This document shows positions 36,822 through 63,044 of a stretch of 64,000 bases of DNA, piece after piece. The position numbers were made by a program, and so were the translations under genes. This stretch comes from Pseudophaeobacter arcticus DSM 23566 (GTDB lineage Bacteria > Pseudomonadota > Alphaproteobacteria > Rhodobacterales > Rhodobacteraceae). The notes under the pieces were generated by a model. It had not been told where the DNA came from, made no database searches, and saw only the letters and a program-made list of their open reading frames with translations. Location of the stretch: the NCBI RefSeq assembly GCF_000473205.1, contig NZ_AXBF01000005.1, forward strand, positions 62,001 through 126,000. The letters run 5' to 3'. Position 1 is the stretch's first letter. The number at the start of each line of letters is the position of its first letter.

Positions 36822-38538
36822 CCTTTAATTGGGCTCTGCCTCAATCTGTGTGGCGGAACGGTAGCATTCTCGCCCGCAACAATTCTGGACCGGCTCGGCC
36901 GTACATGGCGCGCTTGAGGGTTTTCAGGCGGTTGATCTGACCTTCCGCCTGGCCGTTGTTACAGGGCATCTCGATCGCCTTTTTGACCACATTGAAGTCC
37001 CGGTTCAAGGTGCGGGCGAAGCGCACAATGGGCGTCAGGCCGGTTTCGATGGCGTCGTCGATCCATGCAGGGAGCGGACCCGCTTGGCGGCCACGCATGA
37101 TACCGTTGAAACGCATGGCGAGGCTGCGCATCGTTGTGAAGGCGGGAGAACCGGCTTTGAGCGTGTCGACTTTCCGCGCCTGATCCGAGGTGAGCTTTCC
37201 GCTGGGTTTGATGCACAGCGCGGCCGCAATGACCGGAGAGATCGCATGCCCCGTTTCCGGGCCCCGGACCGGCTCCAGGATCTGGTGCTCCACGGCGGGG
37301 CCCTTCGTTTGCTTTTCGGCTCTGCGCCCGCCCGCCAGCAGCCGCTTTTAATGCGACTGACTCCCCTCGTAACCACGCTCTTGGATCATACGGTACAGGG
37401 CGCTGCCTGTTCGAATGCCGTCCTTCCAGCTTTGGCTCAGGAATTCTTCAAAGTACCACGGCGAAGTCGGTTTCAAAGCGGCCTGTTTGCGGTCCGGTGG
37501 CGTCTCGAACTGCAGCCATTTCGCGATGCTGCGGCGCGGGAACCCTGTTCGTCGCCCGATCTCGCTACAGTTAAGCCCCTGATTTCGGAGCGCATGGATG
37601 GTGGTGAAAATCTCTTCCCGAGATGTCCTGTGCGCAAGGCGTGACTTCAGAAGGCTGCCGGCTGCGGTGATATTGTCGGCGTCGGCCAGCAGCGCTCTGC
37701 CGGTCTCAGGGCCGTGGAGGTTCATTTGCTCCTCAATGGCCTGCCGCAGGTTTTGCACGATATGGAACCGATCAGCGACCTGCTTCGCCTGCGGTGCCCC
37801 TTGCCGTGCAGTCTAGGCGTAGAGACCACACCGATCTCTGCTAATCACTTTCACCTCGGGGTGTCGCTTGAGCCAGTTGGTGCAGGTGACGACATCTCGA
37901 TCCTCAAGAATGTCGATCACCACGCGACGCTCCAGATCCACAATGATCGTGCCGTAGGTTTGCGACTTCCGCCAGCTCCAGTCGTCAATCCCGATGACCG
38001 TCGGCGGCTTGGCGGTGCCCTGAGCACGCTTTTTCAACTGCCTGAGCACCGTGTAATCGCTGACCCCAAGGCCCAAACGGTGCAAGAGCCGTTCGGCAGG
38101 CCGTCCGCCGGTTGCATGCCCAAGATGACTGACAATCTCCCCGACACGCGAAGTGCTACGTGCAAACGGATGCGCAATCGAGGTGAGTTGGTCTGCGAAA
38201 GTCCGGCGTGGGCAAGCGGGTGCCAAACATCGCCAACGGCAAATCGCGAGATCAACCGTTACCTCCTCTCCATGGGCGGGATAATCCTGCAACCGCCGAC
38301 GCCGCCAGCCGTGACGTCGGCGTGAATGCAATCCACAGTCTGGGCAGATGCCGCTTGGTGTCAGACTGCCCGATACGATCCACCCGCCGAAATCACTTCG
38401 CTCAACGCATTGAACCGAAACTTCGGCCCCGGGCGACCAGTGCTTCTTCGAGCTCACAACCATCCCTCCTGAATTTTCCTGTTTCAGGATAGTTGCGCCA
38501 CACAAAGTGAGGCAGAGCCCAATTAAGGGCTACGCGAC
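36813..38538. mobile_element. ISL3-family insertion sequence with degenerate transposase
   Basis: Bounded by imperfect inverted repeats matching at 40 of 43 positions (36813-36855 and 38496-38538). Canonical-looking ends GGGCTCTGCCTCA start at 36831 and end at 38520, but the symmetry runs 18 bp further outward on both sides (GTCGCGTAGCC). No direct target repeat is present with either boundary. The left flank is an L,D-transpeptidase gene and the right flank is a Rieske gene; these are unrelated, so the element marks a recombination junction. Confidence 0.75.
36841..38505 (-). pseudogene. ISL3-family transposase with two in-frame stops
   Basis: One continuous frame of about 555 codons reads as an ISL3 transposase: a Cys-rich zinc-finger N-terminus (CPDCGLHSRRRHG and CLAPACPRRTF), VIGIDDWSWRKSQTYGTIIVDL, QVADRFHIVQNLRQ, and the C-terminal INRLKTLKRAMYGRAG. 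Two in-frame stops break it: TAG at about 37813 (after CGLYA) and TAA at about 37348 (after GSQSH). Both look like single-base changes, so decay is recent. The element cannot move by itself. Confidence 0.82.
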
Positions 38539-38876
38539 GCCAGCGCATCGGCGGGCAGATTGGGGTTGCGCGCCTTGCCGTCAGGCTGGTCAGAGACCGC
38601 CTCTGCCCGAGCCTGAGCCATTTCTGCCTCTGTGCGATGACGGATAAAGACAGGTTTTCCGCGCCAGTTGACGGTCAATTGCGTTCCAGGCGCGAGATCG
38701 GAAATGTCGACAGTGATCTGTGCCAAGGCGCGGACATCGGCGGAAGGGTTCATCTGGTTCACCAGTGGCCAGAGCGCGGCCCCTGCGGCCACGACCCCCG
38801 CCCCGGCCGTTGCGTAATACAGGAAATCCCTGCGCGCGGTATCCTCTGACGCTTCCATCACGGGACATGTGTCCAT
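38523..38876 (-). pseudogene. petA: Truncated Rieske iron-sulfur subunit of cytochrome bc1
   Basis: 117 codons covering only the N-terminal part of the ubiquinol-cytochrome c reductase Rieske protein: [28 protein letters not shown] (Tat-type anchor helix, broken here by its ends) and the [10 protein letters not shown] segment. The reading then runs into the ISL3-type end (ASRSP stop). The 2Fe-2S domain is missing, so it cannot work. The start may be ATG 38876 or 38858. No petB or petC lies nearby, so this is a stray copy. Confidence 0.78.
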
Positions 38877-38964
38877 GTCTCCCGCGCGGGAAGGTCAACA
38901 CGCGAGATGTAACGTTTTGTCAGTGCACCTCTCTACGGATCAACAAACAAGCCGTGTCGGCGCG

Positions 38965-40136: not shown

Positions 40137-40589
40137 TCAGCTGTGGCTCGCGAAGACCGAGGTCACCCCGTCGGAGCCGACAAGCAAGGTATCAAAAGTG
40201 TCACCAGCCCCGGGACCGCCCATGCCGGGCGAACTCATCGGCATGCCGGGAACCGTCAACCCGCGCGCCACCGGTTGTTCTGCCAGCAGCCGCGTGATGT
40301 CCGCGGCAGGCACGTGGCCCTCGATAAAATAGTCACTTATGATCGCCGTGTGACATCCAGCAAGTTCCGGAGCGATTTGTAGCCGGTCTTTGAACGCATA
40401 AAGCGCATCCTGATCGACATCCTGCGCCTCGACCGTGAAGCCCGCTTGCCGGACATGATCGACCCAGGCGGTACAGCACCCGCAGGTGGGGGTTTTCAGG
40501 ACTTTAATGACCGGTTCTGTGTTGGCCAGTGCTCGCAGGGGGAGTGTGGCAGCCGCTCCGGCCAGCAAAAATGTGCGTCTTTTCATCAT
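40137..40589 (-). CDS. DUF411 periplasmic metal-binding protein
   Basis: 150 residues. A twin-Arg-like or Sec signal (MMKRRTFLLAGAAATLPLRALA, residues 1-22 in two parts) is followed by the DUF411 domain: LKTPTCGCCTAW with Cys36, Cys38 and Cys39, and APELAGCHTAIISDYFIEGHVPA. The tail is Met/Gly-rich (GMPMSSPGMGGPGAG), another likely copper ligand. DUF411 proteins are often near copper-resistance genes. AAAAGGAAC precedes the ATG. Last gene of the five-gene CueR-type operon; start overlaps the upstream stop by 4 bp. Confidence 0.83.
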   Translation of the reverse strand: MMKRRTFLLAGAAATLPLRALANTEPVIKVLKTPTCGCCTAWVDHVRQAGFTVEAQDVDQDALYAFKDRLQIAPELAGCHTAIISDYFIEGHVPAADITRLLAEQPVARGLTVPGMPMSSPGMGGPGAGDTFDTLLVGSDGVTSVFASHS

Positions 40590-41500
40590 GTGTTCCTTTT
40601 TGAAGTATCCGAGACCGTAGAACTGTGTGTTTGAGAGTCCAGAGGCTGTTCCTGCTCTGTCGGCGAGAGGGCGGGTGCATCCAGGGCGTGCCCGCTTGCC
40701 GGCCCGCGAAGGGGCTGGATCAACATCTTGTCGACCCAGAGGTCGCGCGTCGTGCGAAACTGCTCGATGCCGATCGTCATTCCCTCGTGGCCCTTCGCGG
40801 GCTGGGCAACGTAAGTACCCATGAGGCGGTCCCACCACGGCAGGTTGAAGCCGTAGTTTGAGTTGGTTTCGCGCGGATCGACAGAATGATGCACGCGGTG
40901 CATGTCGGGTGTGACGACGATCCATCTGAGCCACCGGTCGACTGGTCTCGGCAGGTTGATGTTGGCATGGTTGAAGAGTGCCGTGGCGTTGAGGATGATC
41001 TCGAACAACAAAACCGCGACGGCGGGCGGACCAAGCGCTGCGACCAAGCTTAGCTTGATCGCCATCGAGATAAGGATCTCAATCGGGTGAAAGCGCAATC
41101 CCGTTGTGGCGTCGAACTCGAGGTCCGCGTGGTGCATCCGGTGCAGACGCCACAACGTAGGGACGGCATGGAACATGACGTGTTGCAAATAGATGGCCAG
41201 ATCGAGAAGCAGCATGGACAGGACAACGGCCAACCAATACGGCGCGCCGATAGTGTTGAATAAACCCCAACCCCGCTCCTCGCCCATGACCGCCAGACCA
41301 ACGGCCAGGATTGGGAAAGACAACCGCAGGATCGCCGTATCGATCACGACAAGAGCCAGATTGTTCGACCAACGGATGACACGCGGAATGTCACGCCGCC
41401 GACGCGGGGCGGCGAGTTCCCAAAGCGCCATGGCGGCCAGCACACTCAAAAACGCCGTCAGACGAATCTCCGGCTCTGCGGCAAGTATCGTGTCCATCAC
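40586..41500 (-). CDS. Sterol desaturase / fatty-acid hydroxylase family membrane protein
   Basis: A 304-residue integral membrane protein with the diiron His clusters of the family: LQHVMFH, HRMHHADLEFD, FNHANIN and MHRVHHSVDP, about residues 120-230. Three to four membrane segments precede and surround them. Enzymes of this family hydroxylate or desaturate lipids using O2. Its presence between a CDF transporter and a DUF411 protein in a metal-type operon suggests membrane-lipid modification as part of the response; that link is inference. It starts 3 bp after the CDF stop. Confidence 0.82.
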   Translation of the reverse strand: MMDTILAAEPEIRLTAFLSVLAAMALWELAAPRRRRDIPRVIRWSNNLALVVIDTAILRLSFPILAVGLAVMGEERGWGLFNTIGAPYWLAVVLSMLLLDLAIYLQHVMFHAVPTLWRLHRMHHADLEFDATTGLRFHPIEILISMAIKLSLVAALGPPAVAVLLFEIILNATALFNHANINLPRPVDRWLRWIVVTPDMHRVHHSVDPRETNSNYGFNLPWWDRLMGTYVAQPAKGHEGMTIGIEQFRTTRDLWVDKMLIQPLRGPASGHALDAPALSPTEQEQPLDSQTHSSTVSDTSKRNT

Positions 41501-41503
41501 AGT

Positions 41504-42490
41504 CTATGGCCCTTCTGTGTTAGGGCTTGGGTGCGGATGCGCATCTCGCACATCAGTCTTTTCTTGCGCAGCCTTTGCAGCCGCTATCTGGACTATATCA
41601 ACATCCAGCGCGTGGCGCTCGTCGAGACACGCGGTTTCGAGCTGCAGCGTGACCATGTGAAACCCATACTGTTCCGTCAGCCGCCGATAGGCCCTGTTCA
41701 GCAAGTCCGCGGCCTCGGCGGGTGACTGATGGCGGATATGGGCGGAAAACGCATGTTTGCCGCTGGTCAGCGTCCAGGCATGCACATGGTGAACATCCAG
41801 AACCCCGTCCTGGCCGTTCAGGTCCGCCGTCACAGCATCGAGATCCGTTCCCTCGGGCGTGCCCTCCATGAGAATGTAGACCGCTTCCTTGATTACGCCC
41901 ACAGAGGCCCAGAGGAGAACCACTCCGAACGCCATGCCGAGGATCGGGTCAATTGCCAGAAAGCCGGTGAACTCGATCACGAGAGCGGTGACGATGATCA
42001 GGAGGCTGCCGACAAAGGTCTGGATGATGTGCCAGAGCGCGCCACGGGCATTCAGATCGTCTTTGCTCGATTGCCACATCAGCGCCAGAGAGACCACTTC
42101 CGTGACCAGGCCCCCGAAGGCGACCCAAAGCATGGGGCCTGTGGCCAGGTGGATCGGATTTCCGAGCCGCATCGCGCCCATCCAGATCACGAGAATCGCC
42201 ATGCCGAGAAGAAACCCGCCATTCACCAGCGCGCCGATGATCTCGGCGCGGTACCAGCCGAAACTGCGCGCCGAATCCGCTGGACGGCGCGCAATCCGCT
42301 GCGCGGTGATGGCCACGAGAACGCCGCCAACCGCCGACAGGGTGTGAAACGCATCCGACAGGACGGCAATCGAGCCAGTCCAGAGCCCGACGGCCAGTTC
42401 AATCACGAAGTAGACGCCGGTGAGCCAGGCCGAAATCACAAGGGCCTTGCCGGAGGTGGGCATGTGCCCGGCGTGAGAATGATTGGCCAT
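41504..42490 (-). CDS. Atypical cation diffusion facilitator (CDF) transporter
   Basis: A 328-residue CDF protein. The His-rich N-terminus (MANHSHAGHMP), six membrane segments and C-terminal cytoplasmic domain (about 215-300, with HHVHAWTLTSGKHAFSAHI) are all present. The transport-site motifs are changed. Helix 2 reads SDAFHTLSA where CzcD/ZitB have DAGHMLTD, so His49 is kept but Asp becomes Ala53. Helix 5 reads LWHIIQT where they have LHVLGD, so His154 is kept but Asp becomes Thr158. Standard Zn/H+ exchange is therefore doubtful and a different metal is likely. GGGAGTAG precedes ATG 42490. It is in an operon with a CueR-type promoter. Confidence 0.85.
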   Translation of the reverse strand: MANHSHAGHMPTSGKALVISAWLTGVYFVIELAVGLWTGSIAVLSDAFHTLSAVGGVLVAITAQRIARRPADSARSFGWYRAEIIGALVNGGFLLGMAILVIWMGAMRLGNPIHLATGPMLWVAFGGLVTEVVSLALMWQSSKDDLNARGALWHIIQTFVGSLLIIVTALVIEFTGFLAIDPILGMAFGVVLLWASVGVIKEAVYILMEGTPEGTDLDAVTADLNGQDGVLDVHHVHAWTLTSGKHAFSAHIRHQSPAEAADLLNRAYRRLTEQYGFHMVTLQLETACLDERHALDVDIVQIAAAKAAQEKTDVRDAHPHPSPNTEGP

Positions 42491-42497
42491 ATCAGCT

Positions 42498-43154
42498 CTA
42501 CTCCCGTTGCGCGCCGGTCTTTCGCGTCGCGGCGAAGAGAACCGACAGGCCGGTAAAGCCACCTAGCGCAAGCGCGGTCCATGTGGCGGTGCGGGCATCT
42601 CCGTTCATCGCCTGGCTGCCCATGTGAGCGAGCAAAAAACTCGCTGGAATAATCCCGGCCAACGTGGCCAGCGCGAACCTCCAAAGATGCAGCTTGCTCA
42701 GACCTGCGGCGTAGCTGATCATATCGAAGGACAGAAACGGCAGTAGGCGACTGCCGAAGACTAGGAAGGTCAGAGTGTTCTGCGACCCAAACAGGCCCGC
42801 GTTTATCTTCTGACCGAGATGACGCTCAACGAAGGGACGACCCAGGCCGCGGGCCAGACCAAAGGCGGCAAGCGCACCGAGTTCCGCGCCAAGAACGACA
42901 AAGAGTGTCCCGAACGTGTGTCCATAAGCCGCTCCGGCGGCGAGTGCGATCGGCGCGGAGGGCAGGGGGCTTGCGACAATAGCGATTGTCATAAGCGCCA
43001 CGATAACAATTGGTCCGGCAAGACCTGCCGCCTCGATCCAGCGGTCAATTTCCGCACGATCCGGCAGGCGAATGTCGACGCCAAGGACGTCGGGGAAGGC
43101 CAATGCGACGACTCCCATCAAGATCACCGCAAGAAGAAGAATGCGCATCATCAT
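42498..43154 (-). CDS. TVP38/TMEM64-family (VTT/DedA-like) membrane protein
   Basis: 218 residues with about six membrane segments. The VTT-domain features are visible: ASPLPSAPIALAAGAAYG (about 61-78), LGAELGALAAFGLARGLGR and FGSRLLPFLSFDMISYAAGL (about 130-150). The family has been tied to lipid scrambling and ion or selenite transport; the role here is open. It lies 3 bp after the first operon gene and 7 bp before the CDF gene. Confidence 0.83.
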   Translation of the reverse strand: MMMRILLLAVILMGVVALAFPDVLGVDIRLPDRAEIDRWIEAAGLAGPIVIVALMTIAIVASPLPSAPIALAAGAAYGHTFGTLFVVLGAELGALAAFGLARGLGRPFVERHLGQKINAGLFGSQNTLTFLVFGSRLLPFLSFDMISYAAGLSKLHLWRFALATLAGIIPASFLLAHMGSQAMNGDARTATWTALALGGFTGLSVLFAATRKTGAQRE

Positions 43155-43157
43155 GGT

Positions 43158-43607
43158 TCAAAACACGGCATAGAGCAGAACGAAGAATGCCGCTGCCAAA
43201 AGGTCAAAGGCCACGCAGAATGGAATATACCAGTTCGGAATCCGGGCGAGACGATAAGAATTGTGGTGTGACATGTCCCAAAGGGCGTGCAGGGCCAAGC
43301 CCAAGGGGAGGAAGGCCCAATGCCATATCAGCCCCAGGAAGGCTGCCGAGCCGAACAAAAGGGCCACGGCGAGCTCTGCCCAGAACACGCGCGCTCTGCC
43401 GTCCGCGGCGCCAAAGCCGATATAGGCACCGCCAATCAAAGCAAGCGTGATCGAAGCAAGAGCTATCGAGCTCTTTTCATCCAAAAACAAGTGAGCCGGC
43501 ATTGAGAGCAAGACAATCAACACGCCAACCCATACGGGAAATTTCAAGATATCCCCGTGTCGATGGTGCGATAAGTGATCGCCTGTCTTTTTGAAAATCT
43601 GTGCCAT
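43158..43607 (-). CDS. Small polytopic membrane protein, first gene of the CueR-type operon
   Basis: 149 residues with four to five membrane segments (FPVWVGVLIVLLSMPAHLF, SIALASITLALIGGAYIGFG, LAVALLFGSAAFLGLIWHW, FCVAFDLLAAAFFVLLYAVF). His residues cluster at the N-terminus (GDHLSHHRHGD) and in HALWDMSHHNSY, which resembles DUF6010-type proteins. Function unknown; the His clusters fit metal binding. The predicted transcription start of the CueR-type promoter falls on or next to its ATG, so its mRNA may be leaderless. Confidence 0.68.
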   Translation of the reverse strand: MAQIFKKTGDHLSHHRHGDILKFPVWVGVLIVLLSMPAHLFLDEKSSIALASITLALIGGAYIGFGAADGRARVFWAELAVALLFGSAAFLGLIWHWAFLPLGLALHALWDMSHHNSYRLARIPNWYIPFCVAFDLLAAAFFVLLYAVF

Positions 43608-43614
43608 GGCTTGG

Positions 43615-43645
43615 TACCTAGGGATTCCAGCAACTGGAAGGTCAA
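43615..43645 (-). promoter_or_regulatory. CueR-type promoter of the five-gene membrane operon
   Basis: On the minus strand TTGACC is followed by a 19-bp spacer containing TTCC-AGTTGCT-GGAA and then TAGGTA. The -35, the start of the spacer and the dyad closely follow the E. coli copA promoter recognised by CueR. The same layout occurs before copZ and copA in this window. The -10 lies only 7 bp before the ATG at 43607. Confidence 0.82.
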
Positions 43646-44957: not shown

Positions 44958-45680
44958 ATGGGACCGCCACCTCATATCCTTATCGTGGATGACCACGCAC
45001 AGATACGTGAAAGCGTCGCGCGCTTTCTGGAGAAGAACGGAATGCGCACGACCGTCGCCAGGGATGCCGTGGAGATGGATGCCAAGCTGGCCACCGGTCA
45101 CTTCGACCTCCTCGTGCTCGATGTCATGATGCCGGGCGAGGACGGCTTGTCGGTCTGCCGCAGACTTGCGCCAGAGGGTGATCTTCCGATCATCATGCTG
45201 ACGGCGCTTGGTGAGGAAACGGATCGGATCGTGGGGCTGGAAATCGGTGCGGACGATTATCTCGCCAAGCCGTTCAATCCACGAGAACTGCTGGCCCGCA
45301 TCAAGTCGGTACTCCGGCGAAGCAACCGCGATGAACCCGTGGCCGGAACCCTGGCTGGGAGGAAGGTTTGTTTTGCGCATTGGGTACTGGATACCGACCG
45401 ACAGGTACTGATTGACGAGGCCGCAACCGAAACGCCTTTGACGACTTCTGAGTTCAAATTACTGGCGGTCCTGCTGGAACGCGCGAGGATGGTGCTCAGT
45501 CGTGACCAGTTGCTTGACCTGACCGCTGGTCGGACCGCTGGCCCGATGGACCGCACCATCGACAATCAAATCAGCCGTCTCCGCCGCAAGATCGAGCCGG
45601 ATGTATTGCGACCGAGTGTCATCAAGACTGTGCGGAATGGCGGATACTGTTTGGCTGCCGACGTCGAGGATGCGACATGA
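44958..45680 (+). CDS. OmpR-family response regulator
   Basis: 240 residues. The receiver domain is at about 5-120, with ILIVDDHAQIRESV, phospho-acceptor Asp55 in LLVLDVMMPGEDG and the switch Lys in DYLAKPFNPRE. The C-terminal winged-helix DNA-binding domain is at about 135-235 (LTTSEFKLLAVLLE, ISRLRRKIEPD). It is coupled by ATGA to the histidine kinase gene. Given the surrounding cytochrome, thiol and copper genes, a metal or envelope redox signal is likely. The paired TGTA boxes in its promoter suggest autoregulation. Confidence 0.88.
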   Translation: MGPPPHILIVDDHAQIRESVARFLEKNGMRTTVARDAVEMDAKLATGHFDLLVLDVMMPGEDGLSVCRRLAPEGDLPIIMLTALGEETDRIVGLEIGADDYLAKPFNPRELLARIKSVLRRSNRDEPVAGTLAGRKVCFAHWVLDTDRQVLIDEAATETPLTTSEFKLLAVLLERARMVLSRDQLLDLTAGRTAGPMDRTIDNQISRLRRKIEPDVLRPSVIKTVRNGGYCLAADVEDAT

Positions 45681-47146
45681 TGTGGCGTGCGATGAGCTCT
45701 CTCAGCGGACAATTGATCCTGCTTGTGGTCGCGGCGCTTGTCGTGGCCCAAGCAATCAGCCTGTTCCTCTTCGCTGACGAGCGCAGCCTCGCCATCCGTG
45801 CTGCTTTGGGGTTCGAGGCTGCTGGACGCGCAGCGAATGTGGCGCGGTTGATCGAAGAGGCCCCGTTGGACCTGCAGGACTCCATCCTTCGCGCAGCAAA
45901 TTCACCACTTATCCGGTTTGATCTGTCAGACGCTCCGAGTGTGGAACACACCAGTCATTCGCATGGCGACCTTGTTGAAGGGCGTATCCGTGCGCTAATG
46001 GACGATAGCTACAGCCGCGATATTCGCGTTGAACTGCACGAGATCGAGGGCGAATTGAGGCCCTTGCCCAATCTTTCTGACGAAATGACGGAAATGCATC
46101 TCGCGATGATGCGCGGAGAGTTGACAGCGGTTGAAATGAACCTGTCGATCGCGATCAAGGGGGCGCGTTGGCTAAATGTCGGAACGCGGTTCGAGCGTCC
46201 GCCGATCCAATGGCCATTCTACTCGATGCTGACCTTCGGGATTTCCGCCGGACTGCTTTTGGTGGCGATTTTCTGGTTTGTCATGACGCGCCTGACGCGT
46301 CCTTTGCGGCACCTATCGAAGGCCGCGGACCATCTTGGCCGGGGCGAGGACGTGCCTGAATTGACCGTCGCGGGGCCGACCGAGGTCAGGGATCTGACCG
46401 TTGCCTTCAACCGCATGCAACGACGGCTGACCCGGTTCGTCAGTGATCGGACACGTATGCTCGCAGCCCTTGGCCACGATTTACGCTCGCCGTTGACTGC
46501 TATGCGTGTCCGCGCGGAGCTGGTTGACGAAGAAGAGACGCGGGACAGCCTCATCGCATCGGTCGAAGAGATGCAGAGTATGGTCGAAGCGACGCTCACC
46601 TTTGCACGCGGCCTTACCGGATCCGAGGGTGCTGAAGTGGTCGATCTGCGCAATTTTCTGGACAGCTTGTGCAGCGATATGGCGGCACACTGCACCTTTG
46701 CCCCGAGTGATGATGTTGCCGTGCGGCTTCGACCCAACGCGTTCCGAAGGGCACTGAGGAACTTGCTTGAGAACGCCGTTCGCTACGGTGGTGCCGCAAA
46801 AGTCAGCTGGGCGACCCACGGTTCGAACCTCGTACTCAACATCGATGACAATGGGCCCGGCATTCCCGTCGACCAGTTGGAAAAGGTCTTCGATCCCTTC
46901 TATCGCCTCGAGCAATCGAGGTCTCTGGAAACGGGCGGTTATGGGCTTGGGCTCTCAATCGCGAGGACAATCGTCCAATCCCATGGTGGCGATATCCAGC
47001 TGGTCAACCATAACAGCGCGGGTTTGCGGGCCATTGTCACCATCCCACTGGATGAAAGCGAACTAATCGAAGGAGAAACAGATGAAACTGAAAACGCTCA
47101 TTCCAACGTTGCTGGCCAGCTTGCCCGCCAGCATGGCGCGAGCTGA
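45677..47146 (+). CDS. Sensor histidine kinase
   Basis: 489 residues. An N-terminal membrane helix (LILLVVAALVVAQAISLFLF), a periplasmic sensor region about 35-180 with HTSHSHGD (possible metal ligands), a second helix near 185-205, HAMP (RLTRPLRHLSKAADHLG), HisKA with His267 in LGHDLRSPLTAM, and HATPase with NLLENAVRYGG, DDNGPGIP and GGYGLGLSIAR. The last 65 bp overlap the next gene in another frame, so its C-terminal tail is longer than needed for the kinase core. Confidence 0.87.
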   Translation: MMWRAMSSLSGQLILLVVAALVVAQAISLFLFADERSLAIRAALGFEAAGRAANVARLIEEAPLDLQDSILRAANSPLIRFDLSDAPSVEHTSHSHGDLVEGRIRALMDDSYSRDIRVELHEIEGELRPLPNLSDEMTEMHLAMMRGELTAVEMNLSIAIKGARWLNVGTRFERPPIQWPFYSMLTFGISAGLLLVAIFWFVMTRLTRPLRHLSKAADHLGRGEDVPELTVAGPTEVRDLTVAFNRMQRRLTRFVSDRTRMLAALGHDLRSPLTAMRVRAELVDEEETRDSLIASVEEMQSMVEATLTFARGLTGSEGAEVVDLRNFLDSLCSDMAAHCTFAPSDDVAVRLRPNAFRRALRNLLENAVRYGGAAKVSWATHGSNLVLNIDDNGPGIPVDQLEKVFDPFYRLEQSRSLETGGYGLGLSIARTIVQSHGGDIQLVNHNSAGLRAIVTIPLDESELIEGETDETENAHSNVAGQLARQHGAS

Positions 47147-47451: not shown

Positions 47452-49464
47452 ATGGTCCCGGAAATCGGTCACTTCGCACTGGCCCTCGCGCTGGCCCTCG
47501 CACTTGTTCAAAGTGTTCTGCCGATTGCGGGGGCGTCACGCGGAAATACCGTCTGGATGAAATCCGCCCAGGCGACAGCCCTTGGTCAGGTGCTGTTTGT
47601 GAGCATTGCCTTCGCAGCGCTGATGCAGGCTTTCATCGTCAGCGATTTCACCGTCAGGAACGTCGTCGAGAATTCCCATTCGCTAAAGCCGATGCTTTAC
47701 AAGGTTGCGGGAACCTGGGGCAGCCATGAAGGATCGCTTCTGCTCTGGATTTTGATCCTTGCGGTATTCGGCGCGGGGGTTGCCTGGTTCGGATCGAATA
47801 TCCCGGCCGAAACCAAGGCGCGCACCCTGTCGGTTCAGGCGTGGATCAGTGTCGGCTTCCTGACGTTTCTGCTGCTGACGTCGAACCCGTTCGATCGGGT
47901 GTTCCCGCCGCCGCTCGATGGCAATGACCTGAACCCGTTGCTTCAGGACATGGGTCTCGCCATGCACCCGCCGCTCTTGTATTTCGGGTATGTCGGTTTC
48001 TCCATCGTGTTTTCCTTTGCCGTTGCGGCTCTTCTGGAAGGGCGCGTCGATCCAGCCTGGGCCAGATGGGTCCGCCCGTGGACATTGGCCGCGTGGGTCA
48101 GCCTTACGGCAGGTATCGCTCTTGGATCGTGGTGGGCCTATTATGAACTGGGCTGGGGCGGCTGGTGGTTCTGGGATCCGGTCGAGAATGTAAGCTTCAT
48201 GCCCTGGCTTCTGGGCACGGCGCTGCTGCATTCCGCCATCGTCACCGAAAAGCGCGACGCGTTCAAAAGCTGGACCATCCTGCTTGCCATCCTGCTTGCC
48301 ATCCTGACTTTCTCGCTTTCACTGCTCGGGACGTTCATCGTCCGATCCGGCCTGCTGACATCCGTGCATGCCTTCGCCGTCGATCCGGAGCGCGGGCTTT
48401 ACATTCTGGGTCTGCTGGCCGTGTCCATCGGTGGGTCGCTGGCGCTCTACGCCTGGCGGGCGCCCGAAATGGAGCCGGGTGGTCTGTTTCGCCCGATCAG
48501 CCGCGAAGCCGGGCTGCTCGTGAACAACCTCATTCTGGCCGCCGCTACGGGAACGGTCCTGTTCGGGACGCTTTATCCGCTGATCCTAGAGGCTGTCACG
48601 GGGGACAAGATCTCGGTGGGTCCACCTTTCTTCAACGCGGCCTTCATTCCGATGATGCTGGCGCTGGTCGTGTTCATGGGTCTTGGTCCATTCCTGTCAT
48701 GGAAGCGGGCTGATATCGCCGGTTTGCTCGATCGCATTCGGTTCGTGGCCGTGCTGGCGGTCATCGCAGCCTCGGCCGCGTGGTATCTTCTGAATGGCGG
48801 GCCGATCATGGCCTATCTTGCCATCCTCGGCGCAGCGTGGCTGCTTTTTGCGACCCTACGGGAATGGGCGCTACGCATCCGTCTGTTCGAGGTTTCCCTT
48901 GCGGAGAGCGCGAGACGCGCGCGCAACTTGCCACGCGCCTCTCACGGTATGACGCTTGCCCATGCCGGCGTCGCTGTGTTGATGATGGGGATGATCGGCT
49001 CGACCGGATGGAAGAGTGAGGAGATCGTCTTTGCCGCCCCCGGGACCGAAGTCACGATCGCCGGGTTCGACATCACCTTCGAAGGGGCCGCAAAGGTTCA
49101 AGGGCCGAACTACATCGCGGATCGCGGCACCCTTGTGGTGCGTCGGGATGGCGAATTGGTCACGACACTTTTCCCGGAACGCCGGTATTACCCGGTCGCG
49201 GAAAGTCAGACGACGGAGTCGGCCATCCGGTCCACATTGGCGGGTGATCTCTATACGTCGATTGCAACGCCAGCCTCCGATCAAGTGAACAACGCCGGAG
49301 CCTGGACCCTGCGGATCCTCTATGAACCGCTCGTCAACCTGATCTGGATCGGCTCGATCTTGCTGGTGATCGGTGGCTGTTTGTCCTTGTCGGATCGCCG
49401 TTTGAGGGTCGGGGCGCCGCGCCGCGCCAAACAGCCAGCCAGCGATGCTGTTCCTGCCGAGTAG
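47452..49464 (+). CDS. ccmF: Cytochrome c heme lyase subunit CcmF
   Basis: A 670-residue polytopic protein of normal CcmF length. The heme-handling WWD segment WGGWWFWDPVEN is near residue 240. His residues in the GSHEGSLLLW segment (about 90-100) and in later loops are typical. It attaches heme to apocytochromes c in the periplasm with CcmH and CcmI, which are encoded just downstream. Heads a ccmFGHI run; ccmABCDE are not in the window. It presumably serves the four c-type cytochromes encoded at 55-59 kb. Confidence 0.93.
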   Translation: MVPEIGHFALALALALALVQSVLPIAGASRGNTVWMKSAQATALGQVLFVSIAFAALMQAFIVSDFTVRNVVENSHSLKPMLYKVAGTWGSHEGSLLLWILILAVFGAGVAWFGSNIPAETKARTLSVQAWISVGFLTFLLLTSNPFDRVFPPPLDGNDLNPLLQDMGLAMHPPLLYFGYVGFSIVFSFAVAALLEGRVDPAWARWVRPWTLAAWVSLTAGIALGSWWAYYELGWGGWWFWDPVENVSFMPWLLGTALLHSAIVTEKRDAFKSWTILLAILLAILTFSLSLLGTFIVRSGLLTSVHAFAVDPERGLYILGLLAVSIGGSLALYAWRAPEMEPGGLFRPISREAGLLVNNLILAAATGTVLFGTLYPLILEAVTGDKISVGPPFFNAAFIPMMLALVVFMGLGPFLSWKRADIAGLLDRIRFVAVLAVIAASAAWYLLNGGPIMAYLAILGAAWLLFATLREWALRIRLFEVSLAESARRARNLPRASHGMTLAHAGVAVLMMGMIGSTGWKSEEIVFAAPGTEVTIAGFDITFEGAAKVQGPNYIADRGTLVVRRDGELVTTLFPERRYYPVAESQTTESAIRSTLAGDLYTSIATPASDQVNNAGAWTLRILYEPLVNLIWIGSILLVIGGCLSLSDRRLRVGAPRRAKQPASDAVPAE

Positions 49465-49472
49465 GAGAGAAA

Positions 49473-50039
49473 ATGAAACGTCTCATTGCCGGGCTGCCGT
49501 TTATTGCGGCGGTCATATTCGGGGGGTTTTTTCTCTGGGGGCTCAATCCCGAGCGGGATCCCAACGAGATCCCTTCCGTCCTGATCTCGCAACCCGCCCC
49601 GGCGTTCGACCTCGATCCCGTGCCAGGGTTGGAGACACCCGGCCTGGCCCGAAGCGATCTTGTCGGCAACGAACGACCGGTCGTGGTCAATGTCTTTGCG
49701 TCCTGGTGCGTGCCCTGCCGCGCGGAGCATGCCGTGTTGACACGCTTTGTCGAACGCGAGGGAATGCGGTTGTTCGGCATCAACTACAAAGACAAACCAG
49801 AGGATGCCGTGAAGTGGCTCAAAGACCTCGGCAATCCCTACGAGCGGATCGGGTCCGACCTGTCGGGCCGCACCGGGATCGAATGGGGCCTGTCGGGCGT
49901 GCCGGAAACCTTCATCGTCGATGGCGATGGCACCGTTTTGTTTCGCTATGTCGGGCCGGTCGTGGGTCCGGACGCCGTCGAACGGTTCACGCAAGCCCTG
50001 AAGCAGGCAGGCGCACTGCCAAATGGAGCAGCATCATGA
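49473..50039 (+). CDS. ccmG: Thiol:disulfide interchange protein CcmG/DsbE
   Basis: 188 residues: an N-terminal membrane anchor (LIAGLPFIAAVIFGGFFLWG), then a periplasmic thioredoxin fold with the active site FASWCVPCRAEH near residue 82, and the family-typical cis-Pro loop SGVPETFIVDGDG. It keeps the CXXCH cysteines of apocytochrome reduced. Its electrons probably come from the DsbD/ScsB-like protein at 51686-53815. GAGTAGGAGAG precedes the ATG; the stop overlaps ccmH by ATGA. Confidence 0.92.
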   Translation: MKRLIAGLPFIAAVIFGGFFLWGLNPERDPNEIPSVLISQPAPAFDLDPVPGLETPGLARSDLVGNERPVVVNVFASWCVPCRAEHAVLTRFVEREGMRLFGINYKDKPEDAVKWLKDLGNPYERIGSDLSGRTGIEWGLSGVPETFIVDGDGTVLFRYVGPVVGPDAVERFTQALKQAGALPNGAAS

Positions 50040-50509
50040 GACAGTTGATTTTCGCATTTTGCATCGGGCTCTTTCCCTTTGCCGCCAATGCGGTGGAACC
50101 GGACGAAATGCTGACCGACCCGGTATTGGAACAGCGTGCGCGGGGGATTTCCAAGGATCTGCGATGCGTCGTCTGTCAAAATCAGGACATCGACAGCTCG
50201 AACGCGGGTGTGGCGCGGGACTTGCGTCTGCTCGTACGCGAGCGCTTGGTCGCCGGAGACAGTGACACCGAGGTGATCGAATATATTCGGGCGCGGTACG
50301 GGGATTACGTGCTGCTCAAACCGCCTCTGGAGCCTGCGACCTACGCGCTTTGGTTTGCGCCGATCGCTTTCGTTCTGGTCGGGGTTTTCGTTGGTGGTGG
50401 GGTACTGATGAGTCGGCGAAAGCAAGAGCCATTTGAAGATTTGGGCTCAGAGGATGAGAACACCGTTTCCGAAATTCTCAGACAAAACGAAGCGGGGGAT
50501 GCGCCATGA
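50036..50509 (+). CDS. ccmH: Cytochrome c maturation protein CcmH
   Basis: 157 residues: signal peptide (LIFAFCIGLFPFAANA), the helical domain with the redox motif RCVVCQNQDIDSSNA near residue 43, then a single C-terminal membrane helix (WFAPIAFVLVGVFVGGGVL). It interacts with apocytochrome thiols and CcmF. Overlaps both neighbours by ATGA. Confidence 0.93.
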   Translation: MRQLIFAFCIGLFPFAANAVEPDEMLTDPVLEQRARGISKDLRCVVCQNQDIDSSNAGVARDLRLLVRERLVAGDSDTEVIEYIRARYGDYVLLKPPLEPATYALWFAPIAFVLVGVFVGGGVLMSRRKQEPFEDLGSEDENTVSEILRQNEAGDAP

Positions 50510-51657
50510 TCTGGGGTATTTTCGGTTTTTTGACGCTGCTCGCGATCGGAATAGTCCTCTACCCGCTGCTGCTGTCCAAATCGAACACTCTCACCAGAGG
50601 AGATGCGGTACCGGCCATCCTCGCCGATCAGATGCAGGAAATCGAACGAGACATGGACCGCGGTTTGATTTCTGAACAAGAAGCTCAAGCAGCCAGACTC
50701 GAGATCAAGAAACGGATCCTCGCGACGACCCGCAATTCGGAAGAAAAAGCCGGATCGTCCCGTAGTGGTGGCAGAGTCACTCTCGTTGTCGCGTCGGTCC
50801 TCGCGCCGGTTATTGCCGCGGGCTACTATCTGACAATGGGATCGCCGGAGGTGCCTTCAATGGCCTTCGCTGCCCGTGCAGAGGAGCGCGCACAGACTGA
50901 TGAAGTGACGGCGCTTGCAATACAACTTCGCGAAAGGCTTGTATCCGATCCGACCGGCGGCCCCAGCGAAGGGTGGATGCTGTTAGGCCAGACCTATCAG
51001 CGCATGGGCAGAGCAGCCGATGCCGTCGCAGCCTTCGAAGTGGTCGCCGAACGGGAGGATGCCACCTCCGCGACATTCTCCATGCTGGCAGAGGCCGTCG
51101 CGGTTGCCAATGACGGCGTTGTTATTCCACGGGCAAAATTGGCCATTGATCGCGCTTTGGACCTTGACCCATCCAATCCTGCGGCAACCTACTTCGAGTC
51201 TCTGTATTATCTCCAGAAAGAAGAGACGCGTAGGGCCTACGAGTTGCTGGTTTCCCGGCTGGATCAGGAAGAGGCTTACGTTCCATGGATGGAAACCTAC
51301 GCTTTGCAGATCAACCGGATCGCCGCCGCCGCAGATCTTCCGATCGTCGATCTACCCAGCGCGCCGACATCCCCACCCGGCCCGAGTGCGGCAGATGTCG
51401 CGGCGGCATCGGAGATGAGTGGCGCGGATCGCGCGGAGTTCATCCGCTCGATGGTCTCGCGCCTGGCCGAGCGACTTGAGGATGAACCGGTGGATCTGGA
51501 TGGTTGGATGCGGCTGGCAAACGCCTACGCCGTCCTTCAGGAAGAGGATCGCGCCATTGAGGCCTACCGTAAGGTTGAAGCGCTGTTGGAGCAGCAGCCC
51601 GCCAATGATCCTCGGCGTGCTGCGGTCCGTGACGCGCTCGAGCGGCTCGGCGGCTGA
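50506..51657 (+). CDS. ccmI: Cytochrome c maturation chaperone CcmI
   Basis: 383 residues: an N-terminal membrane helix (MIWGIFGFLTLLAIGIVLYP), a charged cytoplasmic loop with QMQEIERDMDRGLIS, a second helix near residues 88-105, and a periplasmic TPR domain (GWMLLGQTYQRMGRAADAVA and later MRLANAYAVLQEEDRAIEAY). It delivers apocytochromes to CcmF/H. ATGA-coupled to ccmH. Convergent with the DsbD-like gene after only 28 bp. Confidence 0.9.
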   Translation: MIWGIFGFLTLLAIGIVLYPLLLSKSNTLTRGDAVPAILADQMQEIERDMDRGLISEQEAQAARLEIKKRILATTRNSEEKAGSSRSGGRVTLVVASVLAPVIAAGYYLTMGSPEVPSMAFAARAEERAQTDEVTALAIQLRERLVSDPTGGPSEGWMLLGQTYQRMGRAADAVAAFEVVAEREDATSATFSMLAEAVAVANDGVVIPRAKLAIDRALDLDPSNPAATYFESLYYLQKEETRRAYELLVSRLDQEEAYVPWMETYALQINRIAAAADLPIVDLPSAPTSPPGPSAADVAAASEMSGADRAEFIRSMVSRLAERLEDEPVDLDGWMRLANAYAVLQEEDRAIEAYRKVEALLEQQPANDPRRAAVRDALERLGG

Positions 51658-57535: not shown

Positions 57536-58930
57536 ATGAAACAAACACGTAGGGATTTCTTGCGCAATGCAACTCTGGCGGCCTGTGCGGCCGTCATCCC
57601 GCGGTCGGCCTATGCCGCAACCCCGTTCGAGGACGTGGTTGCCAAGGTTGCGCGTCGACAACTTCTTCCGGACACCTACCCGGAAACAGAGATCTGGGGC
57701 TATGATGGTCTTGTTCCGGCCCCGGAAATCCGGGTTGCACAAGGCGATCGGGTGCGTCGCAGGTTCCGCAACGAGGTACCCGATCCCAGTTCGGTTCACT
57801 GGCACGGAATCCGGATCGATAACGCGATGGATGGCGTTTCAGGACTGACCCAGAAAGCCGTGGCACCAGGTGAAACCTTTGACTACGACTTCGTCGTACC
57901 GGACGCGGGCACCTATTGGTATCACGCGCATAATCGCTCGTACGAACAAGTCGCGCGTGGTCTGCGCGGCGCCTTAATCGTCGAAGAGGCCGACAGGCCG
58001 GACATCGACCGCGAGGAAGTCATCGTTCTGGAGGACTGGTTGCTCGACCCTGAGAGCGGGCAGCTGTTCGACAATTTCGAACAGCCCATGATGATGAGCC
58101 ACGGTGGACGCATCGGCAACTTTATCACGACCAATGGGCGCTATGACCTGACCTTGTCCGCGAAGCGCAACGAACGCATTCGCTTGCGGATCATCAACGC
58201 AGCAAGCGCGCGAATTTTCCCGCTGACGCTCTCGGGGTTGAGTGGCTGGACGGTGGCCGTCGATGGAATGCCAATCGGCCAACCCCAGCAGATTGACGGC
58301 GAGTTGATCCTCGGCCCGGCACAGCGCGTCGACTTAATTGTCGATGTGACCGAAGACGAAGGCGGCACCGCCCAGTTGCTTCGCATCGGCGATGATGATC
58401 AACTGACCCCGTTGGTGAGTTTTCTGGTCAACGGCACAGCCAGTTCAGTACCAAGAGGCAAGCCACTGCCGTTGCCGCCGAACCCCGCGGCACACGCCCC
58501 GGACCTTGCCGATGCGCGTGATTTGCGACTGGTCATGTCCGGCGGTGCAATGGGGCGGATGCAGTCCGCGTTGCTCGGCGGGGAACGTCTTGGATTCCGT
58601 CAGCTTGCCCAAGCGGGCAAATTCTGGGCCCTGAATGATGTCGCCGAAATGACCGACACGCCACTGGCCGATCTATCCCTGAACGAGCCGGTGCGCCTGA
58701 AGATCGAGAACCAGACCGTTTTCCCGCATGCGATGCACCTGCACGGGATGCATTTCCGCGAGCTGCGCCCCGACGGCGCATTCGGGCCGATGCGGGACAC
58801 GATCCTGTTGGCCGGCAACGAGTCCCGGGAGATCGCCTTTACGGCAGACAATCCCGGCAAGTGGCTGTTCCATTGCCACATGCTCAGCCACGCCGCATCT
58901 GGCATGACAACCTGGATACGGGTCACATGA
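57536..58930 (+). CDS. Multicopper oxidase (Tat-exported)
   Basis: 464 residues. The Tat signal QTRRDFLRNATLAACAAV is at the N-terminus. Three cupredoxin domains carry the copper ligands: HWHGIRID near residue 86, WYHAHN near residue 127, HAMHLHGMHF near residue 400 and HCHMLSHAASGM near residue 447 (type 1 and trinuclear sites). It oxidises Cu(I) or organic substrates at the cost of O2 in the periplasm. It lacks the long Met-rich region of CueO/CopA; the neighbouring cytochrome carries such a region instead. ATGA-coupled to the next cytochrome gene. Confidence 0.9.
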   Translation: MKQTRRDFLRNATLAACAAVIPRSAYAATPFEDVVAKVARRQLLPDTYPETEIWGYDGLVPAPEIRVAQGDRVRRRFRNEVPDPSSVHWHGIRIDNAMDGVSGLTQKAVAPGETFDYDFVVPDAGTYWYHAHNRSYEQVARGLRGALIVEEADRPDIDREEVIVLEDWLLDPESGQLFDNFEQPMMMSHGGRIGNFITTNGRYDLTLSAKRNERIRLRIINAASARIFPLTLSGLSGWTVAVDGMPIGQPQQIDGELILGPAQRVDLIVDVTEDEGGTAQLLRIGDDDQLTPLVSFLVNGTASSVPRGKPLPLPPNPAAHAPDLADARDLRLVMSGGAMGRMQSALLGGERLGFRQLAQAGKFWALNDVAEMTDTPLADLSLNEPVRLKIENQTVFPHAMHLHGMHFRELRPDGAFGPMRDTILLAGNESREIAFTADNPGKWLFHCHMLSHAASGMTTWIRVT

Positions 58931-60184: not shown

Positions 60185-60385
60185 TCAAGCGGCCGCAGGT
60201 TCCACGTCGTAGCCCTCATCCCGAATGATCGCTTGGACCTGATCGGCTGGTAACACGCTGTCGACACGCACTTGTCGGGCAGAAAGGTCACATTCTACGC
60301 CTGCATTCGGATCTGCGGTTTTCACTGCGCTTTCGATCGCTGCGGTGCAATGTCCACAGCTCATGTCCGGAACGCTGAACTTCAT
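60185..60385 (-). CDS. copZ: Copper chaperone CopZ (HMA domain)
   Basis: 66 residues, a single heavy-metal-associated domain with the Cu(I) motif MSCGHC (Cys10 and Cys13) and the usual beta-alpha-beta layout. It hands Cu(I) to CopA, encoded divergently. GAAGGAGTG precedes the ATG. A CueR-type promoter (60418-60448) is 33 bp upstream. Confidence 0.9.
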   Translation of the reverse strand: MKFSVPDMSCGHCTAAIESAVKTADPNAGVECDLSARQVRVDSVLPADQVQAIIRDEGYDVEPAAA

Positions 60386-60417
60386 TGGAACCACTCCTTC
60401 ATCTGATTTCCGTCGGT

Positions 60418-60448
60418 GACATGGGGTTTCCCCCCGCTGGAAGGTCAA
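60418..60448 (-). promoter_or_regulatory. CueR-type promoter of copZ
   Basis: Minus strand: TTGACC, a 19-bp spacer with TTCC-AGCGGGG-GGAA, then CATGTC. The predicted start gives a leader of about 25 bases with a ribosome site. Confidence 0.8.
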
Positions 60449-60473: not shown

Positions 60474-60504
60474 TTGACCTTCCGGTAACTGGAAGCCCCA
60501 TATT
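60474..60504 (+). promoter_or_regulatory. CueR-type promoter of copA
   Basis: TTGACC, a 19-bp spacer with TTCC-GGTAACT-GGAA, then CATATT. It is divergent from the copZ promoter; the two -35 boxes are 25 bp apart. The predicted start is near 60511, before both candidate start codons of copA. Confidence 0.83.
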
Positions 60505-60533
60505 CACCTTGAATGGAAAAACAGGTGACACAT

Positions 60534-63044
60534 ATGCCCGAACCCAAACAGATCAGCCTGCCGATCGAAGGCATGTCATGTGCGTCCTGCGTTGGCAGGG
60601 TCGACCGCGCATTGAATGCAATCGACGGCGTAGAGGATGTGTCGGTTAATCTTGCTTCCGAAACCGCACGTATGAGCGTGGACGCGCTCAAGCGCATTCC
60701 GGACATCATCGAAACCCTTCGCGAGCTGGGCTACCCCGCGCGGACGGCCAAGGCCGAACTCACGATTGCAGCGATGTCCTGTGCCTCTTGCGTCGGGCGG
60801 GTCGACAAGGCGCTTTCCGCGGTGCCTGGAGTGGTCGAGGTGAACGTCAACCTCGCCTCCGAGACGGCAACGGTGGTTTACGTCGAAGGTCTTGTCACGA
60901 CATCCGATCTGGAAAATGCAAGCGGCGCGGCAGGGTATCCAGCAACCGTGGCAACGGCCCAAGCCGGTGACGACAGGGTTGCGCGCAAGGAGGAAGAGGC
61001 TCAGGCGCTTGCCAAACGGGTCACCTTTGCAGCCATCCTCGCCTTGCCGGTCTTTTTGATCGAGATGGGTGGCCACGTCATTCCGGCCGTTCATATGCTT
61101 ATCGAGACCACGATTGGTCAGCAGACGAGTTGGCTTCTTCAATTCGTTCTCACGACAATCGTTCTCTTCGGCCCGGGCCGGACGTTTTACACCAAGGGTT
61201 TCCCGGCCCTATTCCGGGGCGCGCCCGACATGAACAGCCTCGTCGCGGTCGGCACCGGGGCGGCTTACTTCTATTCCGTAGTTGCGACATTCGTACCATC
61301 GGCCTTGCCTGACACGCTGCGCTCTGTCTACTTCGAGGCGGCAGCGGTCATCGTCGTCCTCATCTTGCTGGGGCGTTTTCTTGAAGCGCGCGCTAAGGGG
61401 AGAACGGGCGCGGCCATCCAGAAGCTGCTGGGGCTTCAGGCGCGGACCGCGCGAGTGATGCGCGATGGTGAAAGCATTGAGATCGAGATCGATGCGCTGG
61501 TTCAGGGTGACATCGTCATCGTGCGCCCCGGCGAACGCATCGCGGTCGATGGCGAGGTCATCGAGGGGACCAGCCGCGTCGACGAAAGCATGCTGACAGG
61601 CGAGCCGATTCCCGCTGAAAAGGGTGCCGGAGATCCGGTGACCGGCGGGACGGTCAACGGCGCCGGAAGTCTGCAATTCCGCGCCACGCGGGTCGGCGCC
61701 GACACGACCCTGGCGCAGATCATTCGCATGGTCGAAGAGGCCCAAGGCGCCAAGCTGCCGATCCAGGGATTGGTCAACCGGATCACGCTTTGGTTTGTGC
61801 CTGCCGTCATGGCAATCGCGGCGGCGACCGTGCTGGTCTGGCTGGTTTTCGGACCTGATCCGGCCCTGACAATGGCCCTTGTCGCCGGTGTGTCGGTGTT
61901 GATCATCGCGTGCCCCTGCGCGATGGGGCTTGCGACGCCGACCTCCATCATGGTCGGGACGGGACGTGCTGCGGAAATGGGTGTCCTGTTCCGTAAAGGT
62001 GACGCCTTGCAGCAACTTGATTCCGTTGATGTGGTCGCCCTCGACAAAACAGGCACGGTGACCGAGGGGCGACCTGCACTGACCGACCTGGTGCTGGCGG
62101 AAGGGTTTGATCGTCCAACGACGCTTTCGAAGATCGCCGCCGTGGAGTCGCTCTCCGAGCATCCTGTCGCGGACGCGATCGTGCGCGCAGCCCGGGCCGA
62201 GGGCGCACCTCTTGTGGGGGCCGAAGGCTTTCAATCGGTCACCGGTTACGGCGTGCGCGCCTTGGTCGAAGATGTGGAGGTATTGGTTGGGGCCGACCGA
62301 TACATGGCGCGGCAAGGCGTTGACGTCTCGGCGTTGGCACAAGAGGAAACGAATATCGCAAGCAAGGGCCGGACGGCGCTTTACGCTGCCATAGATGGAC
62401 GTGTCGCCGCCGTGATCGGCGTTGCCGACCCGGTCAAACCGGCAAGCCGCGCAGCCATCGCAGCGCTGCACGAAAAGGGTCTTGCGGTTGCGATGATCAC
62501 AGGGGACAAACGCGAAACCGCCGAAGCCATCGCCCGCGAAACCGGCATTGATCACGTCGTCGCGGGCGTTCTGCCAGACGGCAAGGTCGCGGCGCTCGAT
62601 ACGTTGCGTGAGGGCGGCAAGCGCATCGCCTTTGTCGGCGACGGTATCAATGACGCCCCGGCGCTGGCGCATGCCGATGTGGGTATCGCCATTGGCACCG
62701 GCACCGATGTGGCCATCGAGTCCGCGGATGTCGTCCTGATGTCCGGCGATTTGCGCGGCGTGGTGAATGCCTTCGAGGTGTCCCGCCGGACCATGCGCAA
62801 CATCCGGCAGAACCTGTTCTGGGCCTTTGCCTACAATGTCGCGCTGATTCCGGTCGCCGCCGGGGTGCTTTATCCCGCCTTTGGGCTGCTCCTGTCACCA
62901 ATTCTCGCGGCGGGCGCGATGGCTTTGTCCTCGGTGTTCGTTCTGACCAATGCCCTGCGCCTGCGAGGCATCGCGCCGGCGATGGACGAGCAGCGCGCAA
63001 TCCCGGCAGAGATGGCAGCCGCCACTCCTGCTCCAGCAGAATAA
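60534..63044 (+). CDS. copA: Cu(I)-exporting P1B-type ATPase
   Basis: 836 residues. Two N-terminal HMA domains (Cys16/Cys19 in GMSCASC and Cys83/Cys86 in AMSCASC), then eight membrane helices with the intramembrane [12 protein letters not shown] (Cys460, Cys462), the phosphorylation site DKTGTVTEG (Asp504), [10 protein letters not shown] in the nucleotide domain, and [10 protein letters not shown]. These define the Cu(I)-type PIB-1 pump exporting copper to the periplasm. ATG 60513 is also in frame, but it would be about 2 bases from the predicted transcription start; ATG 60534 has AGGTGA before it. Confidence 0.95.

Follow-up and report, generated by a model that had tools for sequence, protein, structure and literature searches.

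The window analysed here is a 64,000-nucleotide stretch of Pseudophaeobacter arcticus DSM 23566 (C2:62001-126000), a marine Roseobacter-type bacterium, taken from the plasmid contig C2 (228,923 bases) of a six-contig genome of 5.05 Mb. Five tightly packed genes on its minus strand encode, in order, a DUF6010 protein, a VTT-domain protein, a cation diffusion facilitator (CDF), a fatty-acid hydroxylase and a DUF411 protein. Judged from the sequence, this operon is very probably under CueR control and has its role in copper tolerance. We give about even weight to the fuller reading, in which the operon serves Cu(I) tolerance as an accessory unit of a plasmid copper-resistance island, is switched by CueR and has the CDF as its metal-moving part.

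Gene 1 (43158-43607) encodes a helical DUF6010 membrane protein of 149 amino acids (aa), gene 2 (42498-43154) a VTT-domain (TVP38/DedA-type) membrane protein of 218 aa, gene 3 (41504-42490, ATG at 42490) the CDF protein, gene 4 (40586-41500) a sterol-desaturase-fold/fatty-acid hydroxylase, and gene 5 (40137-40589) a DUF411/CopG-family protein. We take COG0398, COG3019 and COG3000 to be the COGs of the VTT, DUF411 and hydroxylase proteins, respectively. The five-gene operon was found where a preliminary description had placed it, and each of the five products exceeds the gathering score of its Pfam family (DUF6010, 34.9 vs 27.3; VTT, 73.7 vs 33.9; Cation_efflux, 114.4 vs 26.6, and ZT_dimer, 46.4 vs 26.7, for the CDF; FA_hydroxylase, 103.1 vs 31; DUF411, 88.4 vs 27). 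Gaps are 3 bp between the DUF6010 and VTT genes, 7 bp between the VTT and CDF genes, and 3 bp between the CDF and hydroxylase genes if the latter starts with GTG, or 6 bp with an ATG start at 41497; the DUF411 gene overlaps the hydroxylase gene by 4 bp. The operon DNA is 94-97% identical to copies on Phaeobacter, Leisingera and Dinoroseobacter plasmids, for example pDSHI03.

The CueR/HmrR-type promoter of the operon (43615..43645, minus strand) consists of TTGACC at 43645-43640, a 19-bp spacer containing TTCC-N7-GGAA, and TAGGTA at 43620-43615. This confirmed the near-identity of layout claimed earlier with the CueR-type promoter of copA (60474..60504, plus strand), and another such promoter lies on the copZ side (60418..60448, minus strand). 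When at most one mismatch was allowed, ACCTTCC-N7-GGAA matched four times in the window against 0.84 expected, and its exact matches numbered three: at the operon, the copZ side and the copA side. Across the whole genome, the five exact matches of TTGACCNTCCN7GGA lay upstream of the operon, of copZ and of three genes for copper-type ATPases, namely the window copA, a second copper-type P1B ATPase gene on C2 and a chromosomal copA beside the other cueR. The genome count at one mismatch was 24, equal to that of a reversed-pattern control (24), and is no proof by itself; therefore it is the exactness and gene context of the sites that matter.

Conservation of the box across loci is the strongest evidence that this predicted promoter is real. 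The best site upstream of DUF6010 scored at least 12/14 in 77 of 80 loci and at least 13/14 in 75 of them, while single-letter shuffles (20 per upstream stretch) averaged 8.5 and never scored above 12. These 80 loci are non-independent, with 24 distinct 31-nt promoters among those with a box, which persisted down to 47% protein identity. No CueR box was found in three of the 80 (L015, L107 and L109). The score fixes the -35 element and the dyad in register; the -10 element at 19 bp was inspected by eye and unscored. Across the loci it is weak, with one to four of six matches to TATAAT; the hexamer at this distance is TAGGTA or CAT-like in nearer relatives and weak in several distant loci. A weak -10 element is usual in activator-dependent promoters.

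The operon ATG (43607) follows the -10 element by 7 nt, and at the copA box of the window the corresponding distance is 8 nt. An in-frame ATG 6-7 nt past the -10 element was present in 59 of the 77 loci with a box, among them lineages whose N-termini differ considerably, and was not seen in the other 18. The simplest reading is that gene 1 is probably translated from a leaderless mRNA, and because of this, database starts further downstream (for example at L019) are probably wrong, should that reading hold.

A probable regulator is encoded on the same plasmid at 63057..63455 (plus strand). This MerR-type protein passes the CueR equivalog TIGR02044 (164.1 bits vs a cut-off of 147.4), and a second CueR copy, 75% identical, lies on contig C6. 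The conserved box together with this gene supports the CueR-type control put forward in the preliminary description. The copper setting proposed there is likewise supported: the plasmid island that holds the operon is one for copper resistance and itself encodes CueR, CopA, CopZ and a multicopper oxidase. The CopA-type P1B ATPase, with its promoter of the same type, is encoded at 60513..63044 (plus strand), the CopZ-like HMA-domain protein at 60185..60391 (minus strand) and the multicopper oxidase at 57536..58930 (plus strand).

We then considered the CDF, whose residues are numbered here without the start Met. In alignment with ZnT1, the HxxxD motif of transmembrane helix 2 (TM2) was changed to HxxxA (H48/A52) and that of TM5 to HxxxT (H153/T157); the canonical A-site quartet with Asp in TM2 and TM5 is thus absent from this protein, which has HA-HT instead. 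The matching aspartates of ZnT1 are D47 and D255, the residues changed to Asn in PDB 8j2g; double-mutant structures of ZnT8 and ZnT4 presumably hit the same Asp pair. Seven homologues from copper islands carry the same HA-HT change. In a set of 121 sequences, namely the query plus its best 120 database matches, HA-HT was present in 120, and the last was gapped in TM2 with H and T in TM5. The same set had M96 in 121/121, M103 and M119 in 120/121 each, and M106 in 115/121. Named clade members among the matches listed belonged to Chromohalobacter, Wenzhouxiangella, Halofilum, Jannaschia and Roseovarius, and at 53-57% identity HA-HT was also retained by Sphingobium, by Qipengyuania and by one genome from a further family.

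The comparison set comprised 27 other CDFs from this and related genomes (27 of 32 loci aligned, many of them near-copies). All 27 retained the TM5 Asp, with sites that were mostly HD-HD, DD-HD or EN-HD; M96 and M103 occurred in none, and M106 and M119 in three each. The clade, represented by 15 of the 42 rows of a quick tree that carried long-branch warnings for single rows, formed one branch with SH-aLRT support of 100. A structure model of the CDF had the ZnT/YiiP fold (mean predicted local distance difference test score, pLDDT, of 81), and the cytoplasmic domain keeps H233, H234, H236 and H250. With both A-site aspartates lost and methionines fixed, the label "atypical" applied earlier to this CDF holds more strongly than it was stated. 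A further short CDF match on the same plasmid (C2:213887-214411, a 221-aa frame, 55.8 bits) lay outside the CDF alignment.

CDF proteins are described as divalent-only in PMC1868760, which also tables Asp-to-Ala mutants of canonical CDFs, seven without function and one hypersensitive. Because such mutants lose function or become hypersensitive, ordinary divalent export is unlikely for this clade. One could still suppose a general divalent-metal operon (Zn/Co/Ni/Cd) that is merely located on a copper plasmid, and among NCBIfam equivalogs ZitB and DmeF come closest to the CDF, although it falls far below both cut-offs (162 vs 408 and 81 vs 250, respectively) and below that of FieF as well. Given the CueR-type promoter, the loss of the A-site carboxylates and the ties of the clade to copper genes, we regard that supposition as very improbable. 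Two His with nearby Met, whose nearness is presumed, would by established metal chemistry fit Cu(I)/Ag(I). Export of Cu(I)/Ag(I) by the HA-HT CDF is a candidate function, for which we estimate somewhat less than an even chance.

To place the clade in its genomic context, loci were found by the TM5 DNA pattern alone. The pattern occurred in 21 of 285 family genomes, at 24 places, and phylum-wide in three of 398 genomes. The test set held 16 clade loci (15 of the 24 family places plus one found phylum-wide) and was compared with 20 other-CDF loci of relatives; the nine places left out lie in DUF6010 operons already identified. Each locus was examined with roughly 7 kb of flanking sequence on both sides, or less near contig ends. 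Copper markers were present at 14 of 16 clade loci vs one of 20 other-CDF loci (Fisher p = 4.3e-7), a comparison in which controls were unmatched for plasmid vs chromosome and marker queries were drawn from this island and its relatives. The difference held when the DsbA/ScsC-like marker was dropped (12/16 vs 1/20, p = 1.6e-5), when four DUF6010-less versions of the operon were dropped (10/12 vs 1/20, p = 1.0e-5), and in the strictest count with both cuts (8/12 vs 1/20, p = 3.6e-4). L208, the one control carrying a marker, belongs to an island of this kind too. CueR-type boxes were found at eight of 16 clade loci vs none of 20 controls. Two clade loci, L194 and L207, had no listed copper marker; L207 has a resistance-nodulation-division-type pump gene, as read by eye, and two CueR-type boxes.

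Annotated plasmids gave a similar picture. The CDF gene directly follows a P-type ATPase gene in Aliiroseovarius, Sulfitobacter and Salipiger; the order is oxidase-CDF in Nitratireductor, DsbD-CDF in Martelella and SCO-CDF-oxidase-DUF411 in Sphingobium and Sphingomonas.

Several points weigh against a copper-moving CDF as the core of the operon. Four of the 16 test loci (L199, L200, L201 and L206) are the DUF6010-less versions of the same operon, and once these are dropped CueR-type boxes remain at four of 12 loci. Two more, L195 and L197, owe their marker solely to a DsbA/ScsC-like match of 34-37%, and the Qipengyuania clade locus L126 has no clear copper gene adjoining. Shared islands account for some of the copper link, by hitch-hiking. 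The CDF gene is absent beside DUF6010 in 18 of 53 named loci, where the operon can do without it. Finally, the lost aspartates may simply mean that the CDF does not transport.

This last possibility deserves separate treatment. The HA-HT CDF could be a non-transporting paralogue, stripped of its transport site, that serves in sensing, as a partner subunit, or as a membrane scaffold for CopA or CopG in the same CueR-controlled operon. It would explain the loss of both canonical-site aspartates, Ala mutants at such positions being inactive or impaired in the tested CDFs (PMC1868760), and CDFs with a non-matching TM5 pattern are known, namely the Zrg17-like TxxxS/T proteins described in the same paper; the adjacency to a P-type ATPase gene on several plasmids fits as well. 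The clade does not look like decay, however, since its His pair and Met set have persisted: His48, His153, Met96 and Met103 are each present in at least 120 of the 121 sequences. Named members span Rhodobacterales and Gammaproteobacteria, and the four cytoplasmic His residues are retained. We rate a non-transporting protein as somewhat less likely than Cu(I)/Ag(I) export, and as its main competitor.

If export is preferred, the clade may be the first monovalent Cu(I)/Ag(I) subfamily of CDFs, a secondary Cu(I) exporter derived from a zinc-transporter scaffold by loss of the A-site carboxylates and gain of methionines. Such a subfamily would span Alpha- and Gammaproteobacteria, with many members on copper plasmids and the one in this operon under CueR; this broader proposal is slightly more tentative than that of export itself. 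A conserved clade that is Asp-less, Met-fixed and copper-linked offers a ready-made test of metal choice in the CDF scaffold. The label "cobalt-zinc-cadmium efflux system protein" carried by some members (P0027, P0035, P0045, P0054 and P0075) may mislead.

The gene set itself proved modular. At 53 named DUF6010 loci, the VTT gene was present in 52, the CDF gene in 35, the DUF411 gene in 27 and the hydroxylase gene in 17, counts that are lower bounds because contig ends truncate a few of the loci (L079, L082, L089, L094 and L107). All five genes occurred together in 14 of the 53, all close relatives with DUF6010 proteins 89-100% identical, and the exact five-gene set was rejected as the key unit on these grounds. 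Conservation beyond this strain thus held in part: DUF6010 and its box extend far beyond it, and the fixed five-gene set is confined to close relatives. A diverged copy in S. mediterraneus (L018) has DUF6010 and VTT annotated as a single gene. In four loci no DUF6010 was found, and the box was followed by VTT-CDF-DUF411 (L200 and L206), by VTT-CDF-hydroxylase-DUF411 (L201), or by CDF-hydroxylase-DUF411 with VTT also missing (L199). Because divergent boxed versions and varied gene content exist, the CueR promoter appears to feed an interchangeable set of genes. After the CDF gene, no hydroxylase or DUF411 gene was found in ten relatives, three of which are cut by contig ends, and in the one of them that was read, L085, the CDF gene is followed by sequence resembling the transposase-like fragments of this island.

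In the DUF6010 protein, H39, E78, H107 and H114 are invariant across 63 sequences and D111 is nearly so, and this conserved H/E/D set suggests a putative metal site. Its structure model is good (five helices, pLDDT 90.6) and had no informative fold match in the PDB, so assignment of a function from the fold was dropped. DUF6010 was named in no paper when open PubMed Central (PMC) text was searched, and the CueR operon would give it a first testable role, in copper tolerance. At L015, a distant DUF6010 (40% identical) without a CueR box lies, as read by eye, among cobalamin-synthesis genes, a context that gives a hint of a wider metal role.

The preliminary description had seen in the operon a combination of metal export with membrane-lipid chemistry. 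The VTT protein is DedA-like by domain only; its identification as UptA was rejected (NF052604, 28.9 vs a cut-off of 250). The hydroxylase has intact His boxes (H107xxxH111, H120xxHH124 and H201xxHH205), and its best NCBIfam match is OlsE (NF052566), an identity that was also rejected at 89.2 vs a cut-off of 475. Relatives of the hydroxylase adjoin an ArsR/SmtB regulator gene on four of five other plasmids, and three of the five stretches hold copper genes. At L137, L138, L139 and L141 the gene of the relative is divergent from that of the ArsR/SmtB regulator, which is of about 220 aa, in a separate small unit. Because the hydroxylase is optional and its relatives stand beside ArsR/SmtB genes elsewhere, the lipid claim is weak, and metal export plus lipid chemistry was not upheld as a fixed design. 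A stronger version would have the operon mainly remodel the envelope under copper, with VTT moving a lipid carrier, an OlsE-like hydroxylase and a secondary CDF. VTT is indeed steadier than the CDF (52 vs 35 of 53 loci), OlsE is the best family match of the hydroxylase despite its low score, and related copper islands also carry lgt and L,D-transpeptidase genes. The hydroxylase is nevertheless present at only 17 loci and elsewhere keeps company with ArsR/SmtB, and VTT is missing in L199; we consider envelope remodelling as the main role improbable.

The DUF411 protein carries a CGCC motif, has a twin-arginine translocation (Tat) signal match below the cut-off, and is homologous over residues 28-148 to PDB 6wis/6wje. 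We take the family of these solved structures to be the one named CopG, from V. cholerae; the earlier summary of the operon as mostly uncharacterised overlooked this.

Combining these observations, we propose the following working model for the copper-tolerance operon. Cytoplasmic Cu(I), or Ag(I)/Au(I) by the known specificity of CueR, would cause CueR to distort the 19-bp-spacer promoter and so enable its use. Transcription would start at or beside the ATG, and gene 1 would be translated from a leaderless mRNA. The metal-moving part would be the CDF, in which the A-site carboxylates are replaced and Met 96, 103, 106 and 119 are near-fixed; this His/Met set would suit soft monovalent Cu(I)/Ag(I), which the protein may export to the periplasm beside CopA. 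There, CopG/DUF411 would bind or cycle copper. DUF6010 and VTT may be helper membrane proteins, VTT as a DedA-type lipid-carrier transporter and DUF6010 possibly providing a metal site in the membrane, and the hydroxylase would be an optional add-on.

Several other features were recorded around the operon and on the same plasmid. A second copper-type P1B ATPase gene with its own CueR box lies at 7785-10190 of L065 (C2:126001-142000), which also has oxidases and a DUF302-like protein and, as read by eye, lgt and an amino-acid permease. A 117-aa Rieske-type protein (UCR Fe-S N-terminal) is encoded at 38523-38898 on the minus strand and is preceded by a CueR-like box (38898) with a 6-bp instead of a 7-bp centre. 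Similar boxes occur just before petA in L021 (9704) and in L028 (9918) and L017 (25611). Transposase-like fragments, read by eye, adjoin the island at 36841-38505, and a Tn3-type transposase of 967 aa is encoded at 31985-34888. Beside the operon, a two-component pair (44958-47146) was best matched as OmpR/EnvZ-like, without reaching the cut-off of any model shown. Comparison with the D. shibae annotation pointed to cytochrome-c-assembly genes, CcmF among them, at 47452-51657, and a similar set is present in Martelella.

We compared the operon with known systems. Like the CueR/HmrR regulon (copA-cueR, cueO), it has a 19-bp-spacer promoter, here with CueR and CopA on the same plasmid. The promoter matches the published HmrR signal, ACCTTCCAG-(3)-CTGGAAGG, and CueR is described as responding to Cu(I), Ag(I) and Au(I), both according to PMC1526738. 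In the main text of that paper COG0398, COG3019 and COG3000 have no occurrences, nor has "HA-HT" any in the main text of PMC5703985, and a search of open PMC text returned no paper joining DUF411, TVP38 and copper. The island is of the same type as the Roseobacter heavy-metal islands of R. litoralis pRLO149_83 and D. shibae pDSHI01/pDSHI03. As here, DUF6010 has a CueR box on pRLO149_83, and pDSHI03 has the sequence DUF6010-VTT-CDF-hydroxylase-DUF411. Copper, Zn and CDF genes of pRLO149_83, with orthologues in D. shibae, are listed in PMC3141670, whose Table 2 gives a single CDF, assigned to Zn under the name CzcD, and shows no comparable operon. The DUF411 protein has in common with CopG/DUF411 (6wis, 6wje) both homology and the CGCC motif, and is here the last gene product of a CueR-type operon. 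The CDF resembles other family members (ZitB, YiiP, ZnT1 and DmeF) in its Cation_efflux and ZT_dimer domains, its TIGR01297 superfamily and its ZnT/YiiP fold. It differs from them in having HA-HT rather than HD-HD, DD-HD or EN-HD, and in Met96 and Met103, which replace aliphatic or small residues and E/Q. In its general kind, plasmid-borne copper genes driven by CueR, the system is already known, and the CDF clade is an unusual variant.

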